This document shows, piece by piece, positions 4,986-59,118 of a stretch of DNA of 64,000 nucleotides. Source of the DNA: Haloarcula salinisoli. GTDB taxonomy: Archaea; Halobacteriota; Halobacteria; Halobacteriales; Haloarculaceae. A model generated the notes under the pieces. It was not told where the DNA came from. It saw nothing but the letters and a program-made list of their open reading frames with translations, and did not search any database. The stretch covers positions 1,121,677-1,185,676 of the forward strand of contig NZ_RKLQ01000002.1 of assembly GCF_019599405.1 (NCBI RefSeq). Reading direction: 5' to 3'. The position numbers were made by a program, and so were the translations under genes. The number at the start of each line of letters is the position of its first letter. Position 1 is the stretch's first letter.

Positions 4986-7900
4986 ATGAGTGACGCGGAG
5001 CTCACCGCCGACGACCTCACACTGCCTATCAAGCGCACCGAGGGGGACACCCTCGAAGACCGGCTGACAGGTAACGCCTACCACAATATCCTGCCCGCAC
5101 GATATCTGCGCAAGGACTCGAACGGGGACCTCGTCGAGGACCCGGAGGACCTCTTCGAGCGCGTCGCGAAGAACATCGCACTCGCCGAGGCCGTTTTCGA
5201 GGCTGACAAGCAGGACCTCGACATCACGGTCACGCCAGACCAGCTGAAGCCCGACCACCCGCGCCGGGACGAGCTCGCCGCCGAGGTCTTCGGCAAGGGG
5301 ACCACAGCGACAGACGACGTCGAGACCACGCTCTCGGTGTACAACGTCAACAAGTTCGCCTACGACACCGTCGTCCCGGAGCTGCCCGACGCCGTTCGGG
5401 ACCACGTCGAGGAGACCGCCGACTCCTTCCAGGACCAGATGGAGTCGCTCTCCTTCATGCCGAACTCGCCGACCCTGATGAACGCCGGCGACGAGCTCCA
5501 GCAGCTGTCGGCGTGTTTCGTCGACTCGCCGGCCGACGACATCGACGACATCCACCAGACCGCCAAGGAAGCAGCACAGGTGTTCCAGTCCGGCGGCGGT
5601 ATGGGCTACGCGTTCTGGAAACTGCGCCCCTATGGCGACCCCGTCGGTTCCACCGGCGGCATCGCCTCGGGCCCCATCACGTTCATGCGGACCTACGACC
5701 AGATGTGTGAGACCATCGCTCAGGGTGGCGCCCGCCGTGGCGCCCAGATGGGTGTCATGCGCGTCTCGCACCCGGACGTCATCCAGTTCATCCACGCCAA
5801 GAACAAGGACGTCTCCCTGGCCGAGACCCTGCGCCTGAACGACCCCGACGACTTCACGCACAACTCCTTTGCCGAAGCCCTCGAAGAGGCCCGCGAACTC
5901 ATCGACGAGGACGGCAAAGTTCCCAAGCACCTCCGCAACGCCGTCGAGGGCCACCTCTCGAATTTCAACATCTCCGTCGGTATCACCGACGACTTCATGG
6001 AGGCCTACAAGAACGGCGAGGACTTTACCTTCACCAACCCGCGCACCGAAGAGCCCCACATCGCCACCGCCGAGACCAAGGAGCTGTACTCGATGTTCGA
6101 TCTCGGCGAGTACGTCGAGGTCGGCGAGGAGCTCTCCATCCCCGCCGAGAAGCTCTTCGAGCGCATCGTCCAGGGCGCCCACGAGAACGGCGAACCGGGC
6201 GTCATCTACCTCGAACGCGTCAACAAGGAGCACTCCTTCGACGTCGAGGAACACCCCGACCACCAGATTCTCGCCACGAACCCGTGTGGCGAGCAGCCCC
6301 TCGAGGAGTACGAGGCCTGTAACCTCGGCCACATCAACCTCTCGACGCTCGCCGCGCTCGACGCCCCCGACTACCGCGTCTGGGCCGACGAGCACGCAGA
6401 CCAGTACGACTCCCAGGAGGCGGCCATCGACGCCTTCCTCGACGAAGCGCTGGACATGGCGGAGCTCGACCACCGCATCGAGCTCGGGACGCGCTTCCTC
6501 GAGAACGTCGTCACGATGTCGGACTTCCCGGTCGAGAAGATAGAGCAGAAGGTCCGCGAGATGCGCAAGATCGGCCTGGGCATCATGGGACTCGCCCAGC
6601 TGTACATCCAGCTCGGCGTCGAGTACGGCTCGCCCGAGGCCAACGAGATCGCCCGCCAGGTGATGCGTCACATCAACCACGGCTCGAAGAAGGCCAGCCG
6701 CGAACTCGCAGAGGACCGTGGCACCTTCGAGGAGTGGGACAACTCCAAGTACGCGAACCCCACGGAGTACCGCGAGTGGTTCGAGAAACAGACCGGCGAG
6801 GACGCCGACGACTGGGCCGAGGGCTTCCCCATCCGCAACCACAACACGACGACCATCGCGCCCACCGGCACCACGTCGATGATCGGTAACACGACGGGTG
6901 GCTGTGAGCCAATCTACAACGTCGCCTACTACAAGAACGTCTCCGACGACGTCCAGGGCGACGAGATGCTCGTCGAGTTCGACGACTACTTCCTCCGGGC
7001 CTTAGAGGACAACGACATCGACGTCGAGGCCGTCAAGGAGGAGGCCGAAGAGCAGATGGCCAACAACGAGTTCGACGGCGTCGACGGGCTCACCACCGTC
7101 CCGGACGCCATCGGCGAGCTGTTCGTCACCACCGGCGACCTCTCGGCGCGTGACCACGCCGGCATCCAGGTCGCCTGCCAGGAGGGCGTCGACTCTGCCA
7201 TCTCGAAGACGGTCAACGCCCCCAACGACTCCACCATCGAGGACGCCGCCGAGGTGTTCCAGTACATCTACGACCACGGCGGCAAGGGCGTCACCTACTA
7301 CCGCGACGGCACCCGAAGCAAGCAGGTGCTGACCACGCGGGCCCAGAACACCGAGTTCTCGGATATGGACACCGAGGAACTGGTCGCCCAGCTCGAAGAG
7401 ATGTTCGGCGGTATCGAGGGCTTCCTCGAGGACGAGGCCGTCCAGGCCGCACTCGACGACTCCGTCCAGGGGATGCTGTCGGCCGCCGACGGCGAGCAAA
7501 GCGAGTTCGCCCGCAAGCGCTCCCGACCCGACGTCCTGCATGGTGTCACCCAGCGCATCGACACCGGCTACGGGAAACTGTACGTCAACATCAACGAGGA
7601 CCCCGAGGCCGAGCGACCGTTCGAGCTCTTTGCCAACATCGGGAACTCCGGTGGCTTCACCGCCTCCTTCACCGAGGCGCTGGCCAAGACCATCTCGACG
7701 GCGCTCCGTTCGGGTGTCGACCCCGAGGAGATCGCCGACGAACTGCAGGGTATCCGGTCGCCGAAGGTCGCCTGGGACAAGGGCGAGCAGATTCAGTCCA
7801 TCCCGGACGCCATCGGCACGGCCCTGCGTCGCTACCTCGACGGCGACGTCGACAAGGCCTACCCGCAGCAGGTCACCTTGGAGGAGACCGCCGAGGAGGA

Positions 7901-8129
7901 GCAGGCCCGCGAGCAGTCCGCCTCTCACCAGACGGACGGCGGGCCACAGGCCGCTGACTCGGGCGCACAGACCGACGCTGGCCCGCAGGCCGACGCGGGC
8001 ACCGACAGCGCCCAGCAGGACCTCATCGACGCCGGCGAGAGCCCGGAGTGTCCCGAGTGTAGCTCGATGTCGCTGTACTACTCGGAAGGCTGCAAGACCT
8101 GCGAGTCCTGTGGCTGGTCCGAGTGCTGA
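4986..8129 (+). CDS. nrdJ: Adenosylcobalamin-dependent (class II) ribonucleoside-diphosphate reductase
   Basis: Reduces ribonucleotides to deoxyribonucleotides with a B12-derived thiyl radical, independent of oxygen. The 1047-residue protein contains the barrel motifs NSPTLMNAG and SACF (Cys177), the GGGMGYAFWKLRP loop, the active-site NPCGEQPLEEYEACNLGHIN block (Cys434, Glu436) and IAPTGTTSMIGNTTGG. Residues about 840-955 form a TSCPD-type domain (GNSGGFTASFTEALAKTIS). A Gln/Ala/Asp-rich linker (about 970-1015) leads to a C-terminal Cys4-type ribbon (CPEC...CKTCESCGWSEC) that probably re-reduces the active site. No intein is present. ATG at 4986 follows a GGAGG ribosome-binding site. Likely the main dNTP source. 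Confidence 0.97.
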   Translation: MSDAELTADDLTLPIKRTEGDTLEDRLTGNAYHNILPARYLRKDSNGDLVEDPEDLFERVAKNIALAEAVFEADKQDLDITVTPDQLKPDHPRRDELAAEVFGKGTTATDDVETTLSVYNVNKFAYDTVVPELPDAVRDHVEETADSFQDQMESLSFMPNSPTLMNAGDELQQLSACFVDSPADDIDDIHQTAKEAAQVFQSGGGMGYAFWKLRPYGDPVGSTGGIASGPITFMRTYDQMCETIAQGGARRGAQMGVMRVSHPDVIQFIHAKNKDVSLAETLRLNDPDDFTHNSFAEALEEARELIDEDGKVPKHLRNAVEGHLSNFNISVGITDDFMEAYKNGEDFTFTNPRTEEPHIATAETKELYSMFDLGEYVEVGEELSIPAEKLFERIVQGAHENGEPGVIYLERVNKEHSFDVEEHPDHQILATNPCGEQPLEEYEACNLGHINLSTLAALDAPDYRVWADEHADQYDSQEAAIDAFLDEALDMAELDHRIELGTRFLENVVTMSDFPVEKIEQKVREMRKIGLGIMGLAQLYIQLGVEYGSPEANEIARQVMRHINHGSKKASRELAEDRGTFEEWDNSKYANPTEYREWFEKQTGEDADDWAEGFPIRNHNTTTIAPTGTTSMIGNTTGGCEPIYNVAYYKNVSDDVQGDEMLVEFDDYFLRALEDNDIDVEAVKEEAEEQMANNEFDGVDGLTTVPDAIGELFVTTGDLSARDHAGIQVACQEGVDSAISKTVNAPNDSTIEDAAEVFQYIYDHGGKGVTYYRDGTRSKQVLTTRAQNTEFSDMDTEELVAQLEEMFGGIEGFLEDEAVQAALDDSVQGMLSAADGEQSEFARKRSRPDVLHGVTQRIDTGYGKLYVNINEDPEAERPFELFANIGNSGGFTASFTEALAKTISTALRSGVDPEEIADELQGIRSPKVAWDKGEQIQSIPDAIGTALRRYLDGDVDKAYPQQVTLEETAEEEQAREQSASHQTDGGPQAADSGAQTDAGPQADAGTDSAQQDLIDAGESPECPECSSMSLYYSEGCKTCESCGWSEC

Positions 8130-8205
8130 GCTGCTGAACTAACTACCGCCGCGGCCAACTGGAGCGTGTGACACCGGAGCCGGGTTTCGCCGTACTGCCC
8201 GCCCG

Positions 8206-8496
8206 TTATTCTATTTCGAGGACTTCGTAGACGCCGTCGACAGTGGTGAAATCGACAGTCGCCTCGATTTCGGCGCCTTCTTCGGCCCCCTCGTCCGAGA
8301 CGAGGGTCACCGGCGTGATGGGGTCGCGTTTGAAAAAGGCGACTACCCGCTCGAAAAAGGACGGCACGCCGCCCTCCCGGCAGACGAGGAGATAGCGCGA
8401 GTCGGCCAGCTCCGCGACGGTCCCGTCGAGTTCGTAGTCGCTTTGCTCCTCCGGCGGGACGACGTGGATGACCTCGCCGGTTATCTCTCTGGGCAT
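8206..8496 (-). CDS. Conserved haloarchaeal protein of unknown function
   Basis: A 96-residue acidic soluble protein. It reads as a small beta-rich domain: strands around GEVIHVV, DGTVAELADSRYLLVCREG and a C-terminal ATVDFTTVDGVYEVLEIE, with a basic amphipathic FFERVVAFFKRDP helix in the middle. No catalytic motif, no signal peptide, no membrane span. It resembles small uncharacterised haloarchaeal families, but I cannot name a function. It lies between nrdJ (convergent, 76 bp gap) and repeat element B, with no co-directional partner. Confidence 0.75.
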   Translation of the reverse strand: MPREITGEVIHVVPPEEQSDYELDGTVAELADSRYLLVCREGGVPSFFERVVAFFKRDPITPVTLVSDEGAEEGAEIEATVDFTTVDGVYEVLEIE

Positions 8497-52712: not shown

Positions 52713-52954
52713 ACGCGTCCGTCGGCGGTTGCGCGGGATAACCGCTTGGCGGCTGTGTGGTGGGGCGGACGTTCCATCGGGGTGACCGGTCCTCCCAGCG
52801 ATGCCCGGACGCCCGGACGGCCGTCGCTCGCGGACAGGACCCGCTGGCGATAGTCCCGCAGCCAGGTGGGCAGGTTATTTGGGCCGTCGTCGCCTACGTA
52901 ACCATAGTCGCAGTGGGCCGTCGCCGGCGTTGTGCGACGGAACCGGAGACAGCA

Positions 52955-54268
52955 ATGGACGAGACAGCAAAGTATCTGATACACGCGGAGATAACCGCCG
53001 CCGGCGTCGTCGAGCGCAGCGACGTCGTCGGCGCGGTGTTCGGTCAGACGGAGGGGCTGCTCGGCGACGAGCTCGACCTCCGTGACCTGCAGGACTCGAA
53101 GAAGGTCGGGCGCATCGACGTCGATATTCGCTCCGAGGGCGGCAACTCCTACGGCGATATTACGGTAGGAAGTGGGCTCGACAAGGTCGAGACGGCCATC
53201 CTCGCGGCGGCACTCGAGACCATCGAGCAGGTCGGACCCTGCAGCGCCGAAATCGTCGTCACGGATATCGAGGACATCCGGAGTGCCAAGCGCCGCACGG
53301 TCGTCGAGCGAGCGACGGAACTGCTCGCCGACTTCGACGCTGACGCTGTCCGGACCGAGGACATCGTCGAGACGGTCCGCCAGCGGGCCCGCGTCGAGGA
53401 CATCACCTCCTACGAGGGACTCCCGGCTGGCCCCCGGGTGGCGGACTCGGACGCCATCGTCGTCGTGGAGGGCCGAGCCGACGTCCTCCAGCTCCTGAAA
53501 CACGGCGTCAAGAACGCCATCGCCGTCGAGGGGACCGACGTCCCCGAGGCCGTCGCGGCCCTGACCCGCGAACGGACCGTCACGGCCTTCCTGGACGGCG
53601 ACCGCGGCGGCGACCTCATCTTAGAAGAGCTTTCCCAGGTCGGCAAGCTAGACTACGTCGCCGTCGCGCCGCGTGGCCGCTCGGTCGAGGACCTCCCGTA
53701 CGAGGCCGTCATGTCCGCCTTGCGGGAGAAGATTCCCTACGAGACCGTCGCCGACGCCGAGAGTCCCGCGGCCGCCTTCGACGCCGACGGTGGCGGCGAG
53801 GAGTCCGTAGCACTCCAGCCGGGTGCCGGAGAGGGCGACGCGGCGACCGCCGTCGCCGGCGTCGAGGGCGAGTCGACGGCGGGGGCGGCCACCGCCGGGG
53901 GCCGCCCCGATACCACGTCGGAGCCAGAGGAGTCAGTGGAGACGGCCGAGGAGAGCGATGTGGACGCCGACAGCGCCACCGACACACCGACTGTCCTCTC
54001 GGACCAAATCGACGCTGTCATCGGGACCGACAGCGACACCGTCCGCCTGCTCGACGCGGAGCTGACCGTTCTCTCGGAGGGCAACGCCACCGAGGCGGTG
54101 TCGCTCATCGAGGGCTGTGACCCGCCGCCACAGACGGTTGTCCTCGACGACATCTGCAGCCAGAAAGTGCTGGACGTCGCCGCCCAGCGCGGCGTCGAGG
54201 TCGTCGTCGCCACCGGTGACGGCGAGTACGTCAAACAGCCCACCAGCGTGCAGGTCCGGACGGTCTAG
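52955..54268 (+). CDS. dnaG: Archaeal DnaG-type primase
   Basis: DnaG-like protein; in archaea it associates with the exosome and has primase-related activity. The 437-residue protein has the archaeal N-terminal region (MDETAKYLIHAEITAAGVVERSDVVGAVFGQTEGLL), a Toprim domain (about 165-250) with acidic motifs VVEGRADVLQLLKHG and TAFLDGDRGGDL, and a C-terminal domain with TVVLDDICSQKVLDVAAQRGVEVVVA. An Ala/Glu/Asp-rich insert (about 275-345) separates them, longer than needed for function. ATG at 52955 starts the conserved N terminus. Its 3' end overlaps the GNAT gene by 4 bp. Confidence 0.94.
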   Translation: MDETAKYLIHAEITAAGVVERSDVVGAVFGQTEGLLGDELDLRDLQDSKKVGRIDVDIRSEGGNSYGDITVGSGLDKVETAILAAALETIEQVGPCSAEIVVTDIEDIRSAKRRTVVERATELLADFDADAVRTEDIVETVRQRARVEDITSYEGLPAGPRVADSDAIVVVEGRADVLQLLKHGVKNAIAVEGTDVPEAVAALTRERTVTAFLDGDRGGDLILEELSQVGKLDYVAVAPRGRSVEDLPYEAVMSALREKIPYETVADAESPAAAFDADGGGEESVALQPGAGEGDAATAVAGVEGESTAGAATAGGRPDTTSEPEESVETAEESDVDADSATDTPTVLSDQIDAVIGTDSDTVRLLDAELTVLSEGNATEAVSLIEGCDPPPQTVVLDDICSQKVLDVAAQRGVEVVVATGDGEYVKQPTSVQVRTV

Positions 54269-54687
54269 AGCTCCCGGACCAGCAACACGCCCGCCCCGCC
54301 GTCGTCGTAGTGGTCGGGCAGATCGCCCTCAACGGTGAACCCGAAACTTCCGTAGAACGACCGCACGCGCTCGTCGTCCGCACGAGCGGTGAGGCGCACC
54401 GTCTCGAACCCGCCTGTCCGCAACTCCTCGAACAGCGCCGACAGCAACGCCGAACCGTGGCCCTGGCCCTGCAGTCCGGGGGCGACGGCGAGTTCGGCGA
54501 CGTAGGCGACGGGGTGGTCCGGGACCGTCAGCGTGTAGGCGATGGGCCCTTCGCCCTCGTCGAGAACCAGCACGTGGGGCGGGCCGTCGATGGCGACTGC
54601 CAGCAACTCGGGCCAGGGGTCGTCGAGGGCAGCCGACTGGATGGCTCGCAGGCGGGACTCGTCGGCATCGACGGCGGCACGAATCAT
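54265..54687 (-). CDS. GNAT-family N-acetyltransferase
   Basis: A 140-residue acetyltransferase: VAYVAELAVAPGLQGQGHGSALL is the acetyl-CoA motif A (Q/R-x-x-G-x-G/A), and RSFYGSFGFTVEGDLPDHY is the C-terminal motif B. RimI-like members acetylate protein N termini; the substrate is uncertain. ATG at 54687 overlaps the DUF92 stop (ATGA), so the two are co-translated in an operon with DUF92 upstream. Convergent with dnaG. Confidence 0.88.
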   Translation of the reverse strand: MIRAAVDADESRLRAIQSAALDDPWPELLAVAIDGPPHVLVLDEGEGPIAYTLTVPDHPVAYVAELAVAPGLQGQGHGSALLSALFEELRTGGFETVRLTARADDERVRSFYGSFGFTVEGDLPDHYDDGGAGVLLVREL

Positions 54688-56027
54688 ATCAGACTGGTCG
54701 CCAGCGCCGCGCCGACGCCGGTCAGGGCCGCCGCCAGCGTCGCCAGCGTGTTGACGCCCTGGTTGCCGACGACGGTGCCCTCGACGGTGGCGCCGAGCAC
54801 GCTGTCGACGGTCATCCCGACGAACCCACAGCCGACGATGAGCGCGGCGCCGGTCGGGCCGACGACCTCCAGGGTGGCCGCGGCGATGCCGGCGATAATG
54901 GCGGCGCCGACGAGCCCGGCGACGATGCCCTGCCAGGTAACGCCGCCGTCGGTGCCCGGTTCGACGCGTTCGAAGGTCGTGATGAGCCGCGGGTTGTCGT
55001 ACAGGCCGCCGAACTCACTGGAGAAGGTGTCGGTCATGGCGGCGGCGACGGCGCCCGCGAAGGCATAGAGGAACAGCGTCGGTTCGACCGCGAGGTGGGT
55101 CGGGCTGGCGGCCCACAGCAACACCGCGACCAGGGCGACGATGGAGTTTGCGAGCACGTTCCCACTCCCGCGGGCGCCCTCGTTCTCCTCGGCGATGCCC
55201 CGGTCCTGTTTGGCCTCGTACTGGTACTTCGTCGAGAGACCACCGAGCCCGAAGAAGGTGATGAGCATGGCGAACCAGCCGTAGCCCCCGAGCACGATAG
55301 TGAGCAGGGAGAGCAAGACGCCGGTCAACATCCCCGGGAGCGAGGCCGTATCGAGCGCGTAGGCGATGTAGCCAAGCACCGCCGAGACGCCCAGTGCGAC
55401 GAACACGCGCCCGGTCCCCGCGCCGGGGTCGAGTTCGAACAGGAGCCAGAGCAACAGGCCGACAGACAGCACCACGAGCGGGTCGTCGCGCTCGAAGAGG
55501 ACGGAGCGAAACAGCGCGGCGACCAGGGCACCGGTGCCGGCCAGGAACAGGGCAGTCGGGAGTGCGACGCTCCCGGCCCCCGTCCGGGCCGCGATGATGG
55601 CCGCGGCGGTCCCACAGGCGAAGCCGGTGACGACGAAGCCGGCCGTCGCCACCACCTCGTCGCTGTGGAGCCGATGGGCCACGCGCTGGCCGAAGTTGCC
55701 GTAGGCGACGATGACGACGGTGGCGACGAACACCCAGACCGGCAGGCCGAACTGTATCGCGAGGAAGGCCAGACTGGCCGCCGCCAGCGCGAACGCGGCG
55801 AGCCCGTAGAGCCGGCCGTCCTCGTAATCGCCCGGCCGGGCGAAGATATCGAACATCGGCGTGTCGGGGCCGATGGCGAACATGGCGAAAAAGGCGACCA
55901 CGAGGAAGGGCGCGGTCGCGGCGACAGTCGCGACGGCGGGCGATGTGAGCCCGGCAGCGACCGGCACGGCAAAGGCCAGTGTGCCGACCGCGGCGAACGC
56001 GCCCGCCCGTCGGACTGTGGTTGTCAC
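54684..56027 (-). CDS. DUF92 (VTE6-like) membrane protein
   Basis: The 447-residue protein has about eleven transmembrane helices. The DUF92 core is the C-terminal half: GMLTGVLLSLLTIVLGGYGWFAMLITFFGLGGLSTKY, AAAMTDTFSSEFGGLYDNPRLITTFERVEPGTDGGVTWQGI and CGFVGMTVDSVLGATVEG. The plant DUF92 enzyme VTE6 phosphorylates phytyl phosphate; a role in polyprenol phosphate metabolism fits the neighbouring cis-prenyltransferase genes (inference). GTG at 56027 has an AGTAAGT box about 28 nt upstream; the upstream in-frame ATG would read from repeat element E. First gene of an operon with the GNAT. Confidence 0.88.
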   Translation of the reverse strand: MTTTVRRAGAFAAVGTLAFAVPVAAGLTSPAVATVAATAPFLVVAFFAMFAIGPDTPMFDIFARPGDYEDGRLYGLAAFALAAASLAFLAIQFGLPVWVFVATVVIVAYGNFGQRVAHRLHSDEVVATAGFVVTGFACGTAAAIIAARTGAGSVALPTALFLAGTGALVAALFRSVLFERDDPLVVLSVGLLLWLLFELDPGAGTGRVFVALGVSAVLGYIAYALDTASLPGMLTGVLLSLLTIVLGGYGWFAMLITFFGLGGLSTKYQYEAKQDRGIAEENEGARGSGNVLANSIVALVAVLLWAASPTHLAVEPTLFLYAFAGAVAAAMTDTFSSEFGGLYDNPRLITTFERVEPGTDGGVTWQGIVAGLVGAAIIAGIAAATLEVVGPTGAALIVGCGFVGMTVDSVLGATVEGTVVGNQGVNTLATLAAALTGVGAALATSLI

Positions 56028-56153
56028 GTGCCGCCGGTATCCCCGAGAGGCACTTACTCTTTCCGAACTTCCCGGGCTAGGAACTGTTTGTGATTCTGAA
56101 CTGAACGCTGTCAAGAGGCGGAACATCCCTGCGACCGCGTACAGCATCATGGA

Positions 56154-56475
56154 CAGCCAGAAAGCCCCGCTTGGCTCCGGTCGAGGGCTTCGCTGCGCGC
56201 GCTCGCCCCGCTCGCGTGCTTGCGTCAGCCGTCTTCCCGGAGCCAACCGCCCCTTTCAGTCCCACCCGCACTGTTTGACCAACCGGCTACGGGTGGGACT
56301 GAAAGGGGCGACCTGTTCGACGGCGTTCACGAGAGCGAAGCTCTCGTGCAGCCCATCAGAAATCTCCGATTTCTGAGGACGGCGGGCGAAGTAAGCACTG
56401 GACCGAGCGAACGGAGTGAGCGAGGGAAGAGCACAGCGAGCCCCCCGAGTCGAACAGGTCGGGGCTTTCTGGCTG
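56154..56475. repeat. Hairpin-cassette repeat element E
   Basis: A 322-bp element with perfect 15-bp inverted ends: CAGCCAGAAAGCCCC (56154-56168) and GGGGCTTTCTGGCTG (56461-56475). Inside is a 21-bp perfect inverted pair, CGCCCCTTTCAGTCCCACCC at 56248-56267 and its reverse at 56290-56310, around a 21-nt loop, and triloop hairpins CACGAGAGC-GAA-GCTCTCGTG (56328-56348) and CAGAAATC-TCC-GATTTCTG (56357-56375). Sits between the divergent DUF92 and UppS-like genes. Noncoding. Confidence 0.88.
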
Positions 56476-56568
56476 TTCGCACTGCTGTCACTATTCTTTC
56501 CGGTGAAGGTGTCCGGGACTGCTTCGAGGACCGTGAGCTTTAGGCGAGCGGTCGCTGTAGCGGTGAGC

Positions 56569-57177
56569 GTGGGTCTGTACGAACGGTATCTCGCGCTCCG
56601 ACTCCGGCGGAGCGACGCCGACCTCCCGGAGACGGTCGCCGTAGTCATCACCGAGCGGGACCTGCTGACCGACGGAGCCTACACCACCCTGGAGCGCTTT
56701 TTCGAGTGGGCAGTCCGGCACGGCGCCGAGACGGTCGTGGTCTACGTCAGCGTGCTGGACGAGGAGGTGGTGCCGACGCTCCGGCGGGAGCTGTCGGACC
56801 TCCGTGCGCCGACCGACGTCGCCGTCCGCGGGCCCGGGGACCAGCGGGCCGCCGCCGCGCCCATCCAGATTTCCATCGGACTCGGGGGTCAGTCGGAGTT
56901 CGCGACGGCGGTCCGCAAGCTCGCCGAGGCCGTCGACGCCGGCGAGCTCACGCCCGAAGACATCGACGAGGCGGCCGTCGAGGAGCATCTCGTCTTCCCG
57001 ACGGCGCCAGACCTGGTCATCAAGACCGGCGCAGAGCGGCTCTCGGATTTCATGATATGGCAGTCGGTGTACTCGGAGCTGTATTTCACCGACGTGAACT
57101 GGCAGAACTTCCGCCAGCGGGATTACCTGCGGGCGCTGCGGGATTATCAGGAACGCCAGCGGAGATTCGGCCGATAG
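56569..57177 (+). CDS. Divergent cis-prenyltransferase (UppS-like) paralogue
   Basis: The 202-residue protein has the C-terminal UppS region intact (PDLVIKTGAERLSDFMIWQSVYSELYFTDVNWQNF) but the N-terminal catalytic motif is changed: where UppS has HVAVIMDGNRRYA, this reads VAVVITERDLLTDG, losing the Asp and Asn needed for catalysis. It may act as a non-catalytic subunit with UppS at 57704, like the NgBR subunit of eukaryotic cis-prenyltransferases (inference). GTG at 56569 has CTTTAG 28 nt upstream. The stop codon lies inside the palindrome TTCGGCC-GATA-GGCCGAA (57166-57183). Confidence 0.8.
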   Translation: MGLYERYLALRLRRSDADLPETVAVVITERDLLTDGAYTTLERFFEWAVRHGAETVVVYVSVLDEEVVPTLRRELSDLRAPTDVAVRGPGDQRAAAAPIQISIGLGGQSEFATAVRKLAEAVDAGELTPEDIDEAAVEEHLVFPTAPDLVIKTGAERLSDFMIWQSVYSELYFTDVNWQNFRQRDYLRALRDYQERQRRFGR

Positions 57178-57383
57178 GCCGAAGCATGCTGACCTCCGGT
57201 CAGCAGCGGTTTGGCCGGTGAGCGCAGCGAGCCGTCCAAACGCCGAGAGACGAATTTTGTGAGTCTCTCGGTAGTTCGGTCGATAGACCGAATCCTACTG
57301 AGCTTCGCTCAGGAACGGTTTGGCCGGTGAGCACACCACGCCGTCTTACCGCCGATACGTGAACGAGGTGCGGTTCTCGGTTG
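57166..57383 (+). repeat. Two direct repeats of 109 bp built from hairpins
   Basis: Copy 1 starts at 57166 and copy 2 at 57275. Each opens with TTCGGNC-GATA-GNCCGAA, then a triloop hairpin (GCTGACC-TCC-GGTCAGC at 57189-57205; CTGAGC-TTC-GCTCAG at 57298-57312), then the shared CGGTTTGGCCGGTGAGC (57207-57223 and 57316-57332). Copy 1 also has CCGAGAGAC/GTCTCTCGG. The remainder to 57483 contains the promoter of the next gene (GTTATC near 57452) and nothing else I recognise. Confidence 0.75.
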
Positions 57384-57483
57384 TTCAGTCTCCGGCTGGG
57401 CTGGAGCGAACACGGCCACCCGAACGGCTGTCCACGGATAGCGACGGGAAATCGTTATCCGGATAGCGGCCGCGGCTCCGACT

Positions 57484-57696
57484 GTGGCCCGTCTCCGACC
57501 GCTCTACCGTCGCCTGGACGCCTGGGTTCGGAACCGCTCGCGGACCGGATACGCTTTGCTCGGGGGCGTGACCAGCGGGACGGCTGTGTTGCTGCTCGGC
57601 TGGCTCCTGGCCGAACCGGTCGTCTTCGAGGCCGTAACGATGGCTGTCACGATGGCCGTCGTCCAGTACGCGATGTATCCAACCGAGGCGGACTGA
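57484..57696 (+). CDS. Small two-helix membrane protein
   Basis: A 70-residue protein: a basic N terminus (MARLRPLYRRLDAWVRNRSRTG) followed by two hydrophobic segments (GVTSGTAVLLLGWLLA and FEAVTMAVTMAVVQYAM). The GTG at 57484 is supported by GTTATCC about 28 nt upstream. No family recognised; convergent with uppS, leaving 7 bp between stops. Confidence 0.6.
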   Translation: MARLRPLYRRLDAWVRNRSRTGYALLGGVTSGTAVLLLGWLLAEPVVFEAVTMAVTMAVVQYAMYPTEAD

Positions 57697-57703
57697 GCGG
57701 CGC

Positions 57704-58621
57704 TCAGTCGGCCACCGGCTCGATGTCGTCCTCGACGGCCGCCCGTTCCTTGCTCGGCAGGGCGTCACAGAACCGACCCAGGACCTGCCGTGCCTTGGAG
57801 AGCTCGGCGTCCTCGACGGCCTGGACGAGTGACACAGCGCGACGGGCGCGGGTGGTGCGCCAGGAGGCCTCGCGGTTCTGGTAGGTCCGAATCGCCCGAA
57901 GGAAGTCGATTTTCCGGAATTCGGGCCAGTAGGGCGTACAGAAAAAGGTCGCGGCCTCGTTGCCGTTGGCGTGCCACGGGAGGAAATTCGAGGTGCGTTC
58001 GTCACCGCCGGTCCGGACGATGAGGTCTACGTCGCAGGTAGGGCCCTCGTAGAGACAGCGTTCGACGGTGTCGGCGTCGATGTCCTCGGGGTCGAGCTCG
58101 CCGGCGTCGACGGCCTCGGCGATGTCACGGGCCGCCCCGAGCAGCTCGGCGCGGCCGCCGTAGGCCAGCGCGACGTTGAGGTTGAGGCGGTCGTACTGCG
58201 CGGTTCGCCGTTGGGCGTAGTCGATGGCTCCGCGGACCCGCTCGGGGAGCATCTCCGTCTCGCCGATGGCCCGGATACAGACCTCGGCCTCGTGGACGCG
58301 GTCGGCGTCGGCGAAGTTTCGGAGTTTCTCCTCGACGAGGTCGAAGATGTACTCGCGCTGTTCCTCGGGTCGGTCGAAGTTCTCGGTCGAGAAGGTGTAC
58401 AGCGTCACCTCGTCGATGTCGAGTTCGTCACACCAGTGGAGCATCGCCTCGGTTGTCTCGGCACCCTCGCTGTGGCCCTGGGTCGTCTCGACGCCCTGCT
58501 TGCGGGCGTAGCGTCGGTTCCCGTCCATGATGACCGCGACGTGGCTGGGTGTTCCCGATAGTTCCCGCTGTAGCAACCGCTCGTAGGCCGCGTACCCCCA
58601 CCGTTCGATCCGCTCTCGCAT
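57704..58621 (-). CDS. uppS: Polyprenyl (undecaprenyl-type) diphosphate synthase
   Basis: Cis-prenyltransferase that makes the long polyprenyl carrier used for glycosylation and cell-surface synthesis. The 305-residue protein has the catalytic HVAVIMDGNRRYA with Asp33 and Asn35, the FSTENFDRPEEQ substrate loop, and the C-terminal DLIVRTGGDERTSNFLPWHANGNEAATFFC. The C-terminal 60 residues after TYQNREAS are an extension. ATG at 58621 gives an N-terminal amphipathic helix (RERIERWGYAAYERLLQRE). The TTATC box about 25 nt upstream supports it. The catalytic set is intact. Confidence 0.94.
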   Translation of the reverse strand: MRERIERWGYAAYERLLQRELSGTPSHVAVIMDGNRRYARKQGVETTQGHSEGAETTEAMLHWCDELDIDEVTLYTFSTENFDRPEEQREYIFDLVEEKLRNFADADRVHEAEVCIRAIGETEMLPERVRGAIDYAQRRTAQYDRLNLNVALAYGGRAELLGAARDIAEAVDAGELDPEDIDADTVERCLYEGPTCDVDLIVRTGGDERTSNFLPWHANGNEAATFFCTPYWPEFRKIDFLRAIRTYQNREASWRTTRARRAVSLVQAVEDAELSKARQVLGRFCDALPSKERAAVEDDIEPVAD

Positions 58622-58726
58622 CACCCGAAGCATATCAACGAGCCGATAAGGCGTTTGTGGCTTGGGCGCGGGCGTGCGAACCGCCCACATAGATTTATTA
58701 GGCGCGGGTGAGAACTCGAAAGCGCA

Positions 58727-58921
58727 ATGGCGACCGGTACGGTAGACTTCTTCAACGACACTGGCGGATACGGCTTCATCGACACAGAGGACTCCGACGA
58801 GGACGTCTTCTTCCACATGGAGGACATCGAAGGTCCTGACCTCGAGGAGGGGCAGGAAGTCGAGTTCGAAATCGAACAGGCGGACAAGGGTCCGCGCGCG
58901 AAGAACCTCACGAGGCTATAA
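58727..58921 (+). CDS. cspA: Cold-shock domain protein (copy 1)
   Basis: A 64-residue CSD protein that binds single-stranded RNA or DNA. RNP1 is GGYGFI (residues 13-18) and RNP2 is VFFHM (27-31). It is very acidic, unlike bacterial CspA. TTTATT at 58694-58699 lies about 30 nt upstream. It is followed after 2 bp by a second copy of 64 residues. Confidence 0.93.
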
Positions 58922-58923
58922 CG

Positions 58924-59118
58924 ATGGCGACAGGCAAAGTCGATTTCTTCAACGACACCGGCGGGTACGGCTTCATCGATACCGAGGACGCTGACGAGGA
59001 CGTCTTCTTCCACATGGAGGACGTCGGCGGTCCAGACCTCGAAGAGGGTCAGGAGGTCGAGTTCGACATCGTCCAGGCCGACAAGGGGCCGCGAGCCGAG
59101 AACGTAACGCGGCTGTAG
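58924..59118 (+). CDS. cspA: Cold-shock domain protein (copy 2)
   Basis: A 64-residue CSD protein, highly similar to copy 1 (differences are scattered, e.g. GTVDFF versus GKVDFF, EIEQ versus DIVQ). The same RNP1 and RNP2 motifs are present. The genes lie 2 bp apart and must be co-transcribed, a tandem duplication retained intact. Confidence 0.93.
   Translation: MATGKVDFFNDTGGYGFIDTEDADEDVFFHMEDVGGPDLEEGQEVEFDIVQADKGPRAENVTRL

Follow-up and report, generated by a model that had tools for sequence, protein, structure and literature searches.

Heteromeric cis-prenyltransferases are already known in archaea, and the haloarchaeal gene pair analysed here most likely extends that known type and is not a new kind. 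Archaeoglobus fulgidus, too, has such an enzyme (no description of this heteromer was found in the open-licence literature). The Methanosarcina mazei proteins MM_0618 and MM_1083 together make up a heteromeric enzyme with C45-50 products (Emi et al. 2019, cited in PMC8131916), to which passages of PMC8131916 attribute, as likely, the supply of the glycosyl carrier lipid. According to the same passages, the RXG motif is highly conserved in cis-prenyltransferases of the homodimer type, and Methanosarcina MM_0014, which ends in a TLGG tail and has no RXG, is homodimeric and active. In humans, the RXG motif of NgBR extends into the active site of DHDDS, where the receiving residues are R37, E81, N82 and R85, and defects of either subunit cause disease (passages of PMC7573591). 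Catalytic subunits of plants that have no RXG depend on an RXG-bearing partner, LEW1 (a passage of PMC13247534). No haloarchaeal cis-prenyltransferase pair described as a heteromer was found in the open-licence literature. A passage of PMC9263693 names HVO_2318 an undecaprenyl pyrophosphate synthetase, and the linkage of DUF92 (arCOG02245) to uppS (HVO_2318) and the relation of DUF92 to cytidylyltransferases and dolichol kinase are given in a part of Makarova et al. 2015 (PMC5898192).

The window, a stretch of 64,000 nucleotides from a haloarchaeal genome of 4.03 Mb, contains the following genes:
54684-56246, minus strand, DUF92 membrane protein, a kinase-like candidate (PF01940, E 7.2e-57)
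56569-57177, plus strand, putative non-catalytic (NgBR-like) cis-prenyltransferase subunit, the "56569 gene" (202 aa, GTG start; PF01255)
57704-58633, minus strand, putative catalytic (DHDDS-like) cis-prenyltransferase subunit UppS, the "57704 gene" (309 aa; PF01255)

The 56569 and 57704 genes are located tail to tail, with 526 bp between their stop codons, and are the only PF01255 genes in the whole genome. The DUF92 gene is the divergent neighbour of the 56569 gene, on the side away from the 57704 gene, and its PF01940 match confirms the initial annotation, which had placed a DUF92 protein on the other side of the pair. The complete catalytic motif IMDGNRR that had been ascribed to the 57704 protein is indeed there, DGNRR occupying residues 37-41 within a full PF01255 match (E 2.3e-68). 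The end of this gene had been set at 58621, which is in the correct frame but corresponds to an internal Met, the frame reaching 58633. It had also been proposed that the 56569 protein has VITERDL in place of IMDGNRR and keeps the C-terminal region; the alignment agrees with this, as does PF01255, which matches residues 98-201 only (E 3.8e-27, profile positions 116-219), that is, the C-terminal half. ERDL at residues 29-32 replaces the DGN motif, and the position of the catalytic Asp is occupied by Thr28. Their C-terminal halves share 44% identity across 104 aligned positions. By the 56569 protein, the closest named relative among the matches listed is Haloarcula rara (96% identity). An open frame of 70 aa with a hydrophobic middle (57484-57696, plus strand) sits between both cis-prenyltransferase genes. 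A tandem pair of nearly identical 64-aa frames (58727-58921 and 58924-59118, plus strand), which we take to resemble cold-shock proteins, immediately precedes uppS and points the other way.

The strongest evidence for a putative heteromer, which the initial annotation had missed, is the reciprocal split of the DGN and RXG motifs between the two sequences. The 56569 protein ends in QRRFGR, with R199-F200-G201 as the RXG tail, and the 57704 protein, which carries DGNRR, has no RXG. The sequence set drawn from the 60 relatives comprised the degenerate proteins of 47 of them and 44 catalytic proteins, the loci L001-L003, duplicates of the window, being excluded from the alignments. All 47 degenerate proteins carry a C-terminal RXG and none has DGN; DGN is present in each of the 40 catalytic proteins that cover its place, and RXG in none of the 44 at the aligned position, a single R-x-G being found elsewhere in one of them (L027), within the C-terminal extension. 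The same holds for the degenerate proteins of the named haloarchaeal loci (RXG 80/80, DGN 0/80), which are the top 80 among 376 and hence come from the nearer relatives. Among degenerate proteins of the phylum outside the haloarchaea, 34 of 36 have RXG, the other two KXG and none DGN, and DGNRR is found in all 37 non-haloarchaeal catalytic proteins and is invariant in a set of 46 sequences. Even the highly divergent degenerate frames of one family, of 164 and 168 aa, terminate in RRFGA and RRFGR. An R-x-G string occurs in the last eight residues of four of the 37 non-haloarchaeal catalytic proteins, and in one of these (L175, C-terminus RIRAGE) it could be a real working tail. The homodimeric UppS of E. 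coli and other bacteria resembles the 57704 protein in fold and catalytic residues but has DGN and RXG in one polypeptide; here the two motifs were found split over two chains. In one metagenome-assembled genome (L122, MAG QH_10_67_22), the catalytic gene apparently lies in two frames near 7338-8223, owing to a frameshift or an assembly error.

It is highly probable, in our judgement, that the 56569 and 57704 proteins are the two subunits of an obligate DHDDS/NgBR-like heteromeric cis-prenyltransferase, whose product would be converted into the glycosyl carrier lipid. The 57704 protein would bind isopentenyl diphosphate together with the allylic primer and perform the chemistry. The 56569 protein, in which the catalytic Asp is gone along with some of the substrate tunnel while the dimer-forming C-terminal half is kept, would send its RXG tail across the dimer interface to close the active site of the 57704 protein, as NgBR does on DHDDS. 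Because DGN and RXG have been reciprocally lost, a complete site would be possible solely across the heterodimer interface: a homodimer of the degenerate protein would have no catalytic site, one of the catalytic protein would have no closing tail, and the heterodimer alone would be complete. The product would be a polyprenyl diphosphate, the precursor of dolichyl phosphate, which serves as the carrier for protein glycosylation; this product and role are proposed because of the M. mazei pair and because the 57704 protein is the sole catalytic cis-prenyltransferase of the genome. The motif split and its conservation, the co-occurrence and linkage of both genes, the single degenerate clade and the predicted fold are results of the analysis; from these we infer the physical association of the subunits, the insertion of the tail and the dependence of activity on the partner, as well as the product. 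The likeness to the human enzyme, in which DHDDS is a DGNRRYA catalytic subunit with a C-terminal helical extension in place of an RXG tail and NgBR (NUS1) a non-catalytic subunit whose C-terminus provides RXG, is one of design and does not imply common descent of both heteromers.

The initial annotation had regarded the pair as a haloarchaeal analogue of this heteromer, one that could set polyprenol chain length, and called for its co-occurrence across haloarchaea to be checked. Both genes were found in all 60 relatives and in 26 of 26 genera, so the idea of a heteromer is not refuted; the analogy is well supported by this and by the motif split, but it is not specific to haloarchaea, as such pairs are present across the whole phylum and a heteromeric enzyme has been demonstrated in M. 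mazei. The haloarchaeal pair is real, strongly conserved and well explained, and the heteromers known from archaea and eukaryotes would lead one to expect it. The profile of the degenerate protein has matches in 192 of 196 genomes of the phylum, with at least two matches in 188, one in four and none in four. In one family (f24; G066, G075, G085 and G094), none of the four genomes has a match to this profile or a PF01255 match over the cut-off and, judging by these searches, the family has lost both genes jointly. Outside the haloarchaea, the catalytic profile has matches in 37 of 39 genomes, 36 of which were confirmed to carry the two genes, the degenerate locus of G178 having been left out of this check. 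Three genomes in which the pair seems broken (G144, G186 and G227) have a completeness of just 83-89%, one of them (G186) retaining a 95-aa piece that resembles the start of the degenerate gene; a further genome, 95% complete (G221), has the degenerate gene only. As for linkage, among the best 80 of 376 named haloarchaeal loci the catalytic gene is located downstream and convergent in 65, with a gap of 0-4949 bp, and is not a neighbour in 14 with enough flank, one locus being untestable. Both genes lie within one extracted stretch in 16 non-haloarchaeal genomes, convergent in 15 and on the same strand in one.

In a family tree of 115 rows, built by a quick method and containing several long branches, the 57 degenerate proteins group together in a single clade (SH-aLRT 99), and therefore the split between degenerate and catalytic proteins is old within the phylum. 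The 55 catalytic proteins lie on one side of a weaker branch (SH-aLRT 77), and three proteins of the MM_0014 type make up a third group (SH-aLRT 100). This third paralogue, with PDGNRRWA and a TLGG end, is found in some genomes of the phylum (L193, L208 and L228). A Methanosarcina-like genome (G200) has exactly three genes of the family: one of the MM_0014 type with TLGG, whose product is closely related to MM_0014 itself (441 bits), one with DGN and no RXG, and one with RXG and no DGN. Because these gene kinds match by elimination, MM_0618/MM_1083 should be the orthologues of the pair in haloarchaea, which shares with them an archaeal origin and probably the forming of one enzyme by two paralogues. 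The haloarchaeal pair differs in lineage and salt environment and in gene order, the haloarchaeal genes being mostly tail to tail, whereas those of G200 are far apart; moreover, the third, TLGG paralogue is absent from the genome of the window.

Besides DGNRR, the residues R207, R213, S215 and E226 are conserved in the 57704 protein. Its structure model (mean pLDDT 78.7, residues 211-227 below 50) predicts that some 50 aa at the C-terminus, where the RXG tail would be, form a helical extension, with helices at 241-272, 279-291 and 294-303. A long extension is not universal, several non-haloarchaeal catalytic frames having just 258-273 aa. The residues of DHDDS that receive the tail (R37, E81, N82 and R85) align with R40, E84, N85 and R88, which are invariant in 46 sequences of the catalytic subunit, but their equivalents are largely present in aligned bacterial UppS too; these residues are consistent with a heteromer and not decisive. 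In a single-sequence search with the 57704 protein, DHDDS came first (3e-46 against 4.2e-45). With a profile of the catalytic subunit, it tied with E. coli UppS (220.8 against 220.9 bits), the match covering profile positions 3-286 for DHDDS, with the last part weak, and 26-255 for E. coli UppS; as the profile scores tie, sequence rank was dropped as a sign of kinship with DHDDS.

Another explanation might be that UppS is active as a homodimer and its degenerate paralogue acts as a regulator or in a separate role, for example in modulating chain length or turnover. MM_0014, an active homodimeric enzyme in spite of having no RXG (a passage of PMC8131916), offers a precedent, and some genomes have the pair at separate places; yet the strict retention of RXG, even in the most eroded proteins, is hard to explain unless this tail serves the site of another protein, the predicted helical extension occupies the place of the tail in the catalytic protein, and one family has neither gene. 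We therefore consider an active UppS homodimer unlikely.

The neighbourhood of DUF92 bears on a further explanation, that the degenerate protein chiefly serves DUF92, as an adaptor or as a lipid-kinase subunit that binds prenyl phosphate, and that its linkage to UppS is secondary. Among the best 80 of 376 named haloarchaeal loci, DUF92 is located divergently upstream of the degenerate gene in 72, compared with 65 for convergent UppS, and it is divergent beside the degenerate gene in 17 of 36 loci of the phylum outside the haloarchaea. Beside roughly half of these non-haloarchaeal loci no DUF92 was found, many of them having the catalytic gene there, and we know of no role of an RXG tail in any kinase. 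In cis-prenyltransferase sites, by contrast, the tail does matter (passages of PMC8131916 and PMC7573591), which makes service to DUF92 as the chief role very improbable.

The AlphaFold2 model of the 56569 protein has a cis-prenyltransferase fold (pLDDT 84.7, pTM 0.81). In the fold comparison, cis-prenyltransferases gave Z values of 13-14 and NgBR chains 13.0-13.5 over residues 1-202; NgBR and UppS being tied, this comparison was dropped as a means of choosing between an NgBR-like and a UppS-like protein. The profile of the degenerate protein (202 positions) is matched by NgBR chains over 16-202 and by E. coli UppS over just 83-201. An N-terminal transmembrane segment like that of NgBR was not found in the 56569 protein, whose 202 aa open directly with the domain, and in one relative (G056) the entire open frame of the degenerate gene is 203 aa, leaving no space for such a segment. 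The stretch that matches E81-R85 of DHDDS is unconserved in the alignment of degenerate proteins. Compared with close relatives, the 56569 gene has a dN/dS of 0.10-0.13 (six comparisons, two with identical values), and purifying selection acts on it. That the gene is merely a functionless, decaying copy, as the loss of the catalytic motif and an N-terminal half with no Pfam match might suggest, is hardly credible in view of these dN/dS values, the 54 invariant columns among 62 degenerate sequences, the presence of the gene in 60 of 60 relatives and the single old clade.

With the heteromeric enzyme as the preferred reading, haloarchaea would share with humans the two-subunit design of a carrier-lipid enzyme. 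Haloferax volcanii is a genetically tractable haloarchaeal model. Given an old split within the phylum, a simple partner that has no membrane anchor would be available for studying the role of the tail.

The true start of the DUF92 protein is probably near residue 73-74 of the frame 54684-56246, because the alignment with many relatives begins there. An internal duplication of this protein was considered and dropped, since its N- and C-terminal halves have no detectable similarity. The passages of Makarova et al. 2015 (PMC5898192) do not separate the catalytic from the degenerate uppS; here the degenerate one is the tighter partner of DUF92. A passage of Lombard 2016 (PMC5088576) names the later steps by which archaea make dolichyl phosphate as unresolved, and the linkage makes DUF92 a candidate for them. 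A single three-gene carrier-lipid module may be imagined, in which DUF92 would join the heteromer both as the membrane anchor of the soluble NgBR-like subunit, replacing the transmembrane segment of NgBR, and as the enzyme for a missing kinase step in primer salvage or in the archaeal route to dolichyl phosphate, but we hold this combination to be rather doubtful. The intergenic stretch between the DUF92 and 56569 genes (56247-56520) is a dispersed composite repeat with 113 matches in the same genome (E <= 0.001), which mostly span about 1-76 or 131-242 of the stretch and are often close together. On the other side of the DUF92 gene, the region 52757-54687 contains a long plus-strand frame, presumably primase-like, whose end at 54268 overlaps by 4 bp with the end of a GNAT/RimI-like gene (54265-54687, minus strand).
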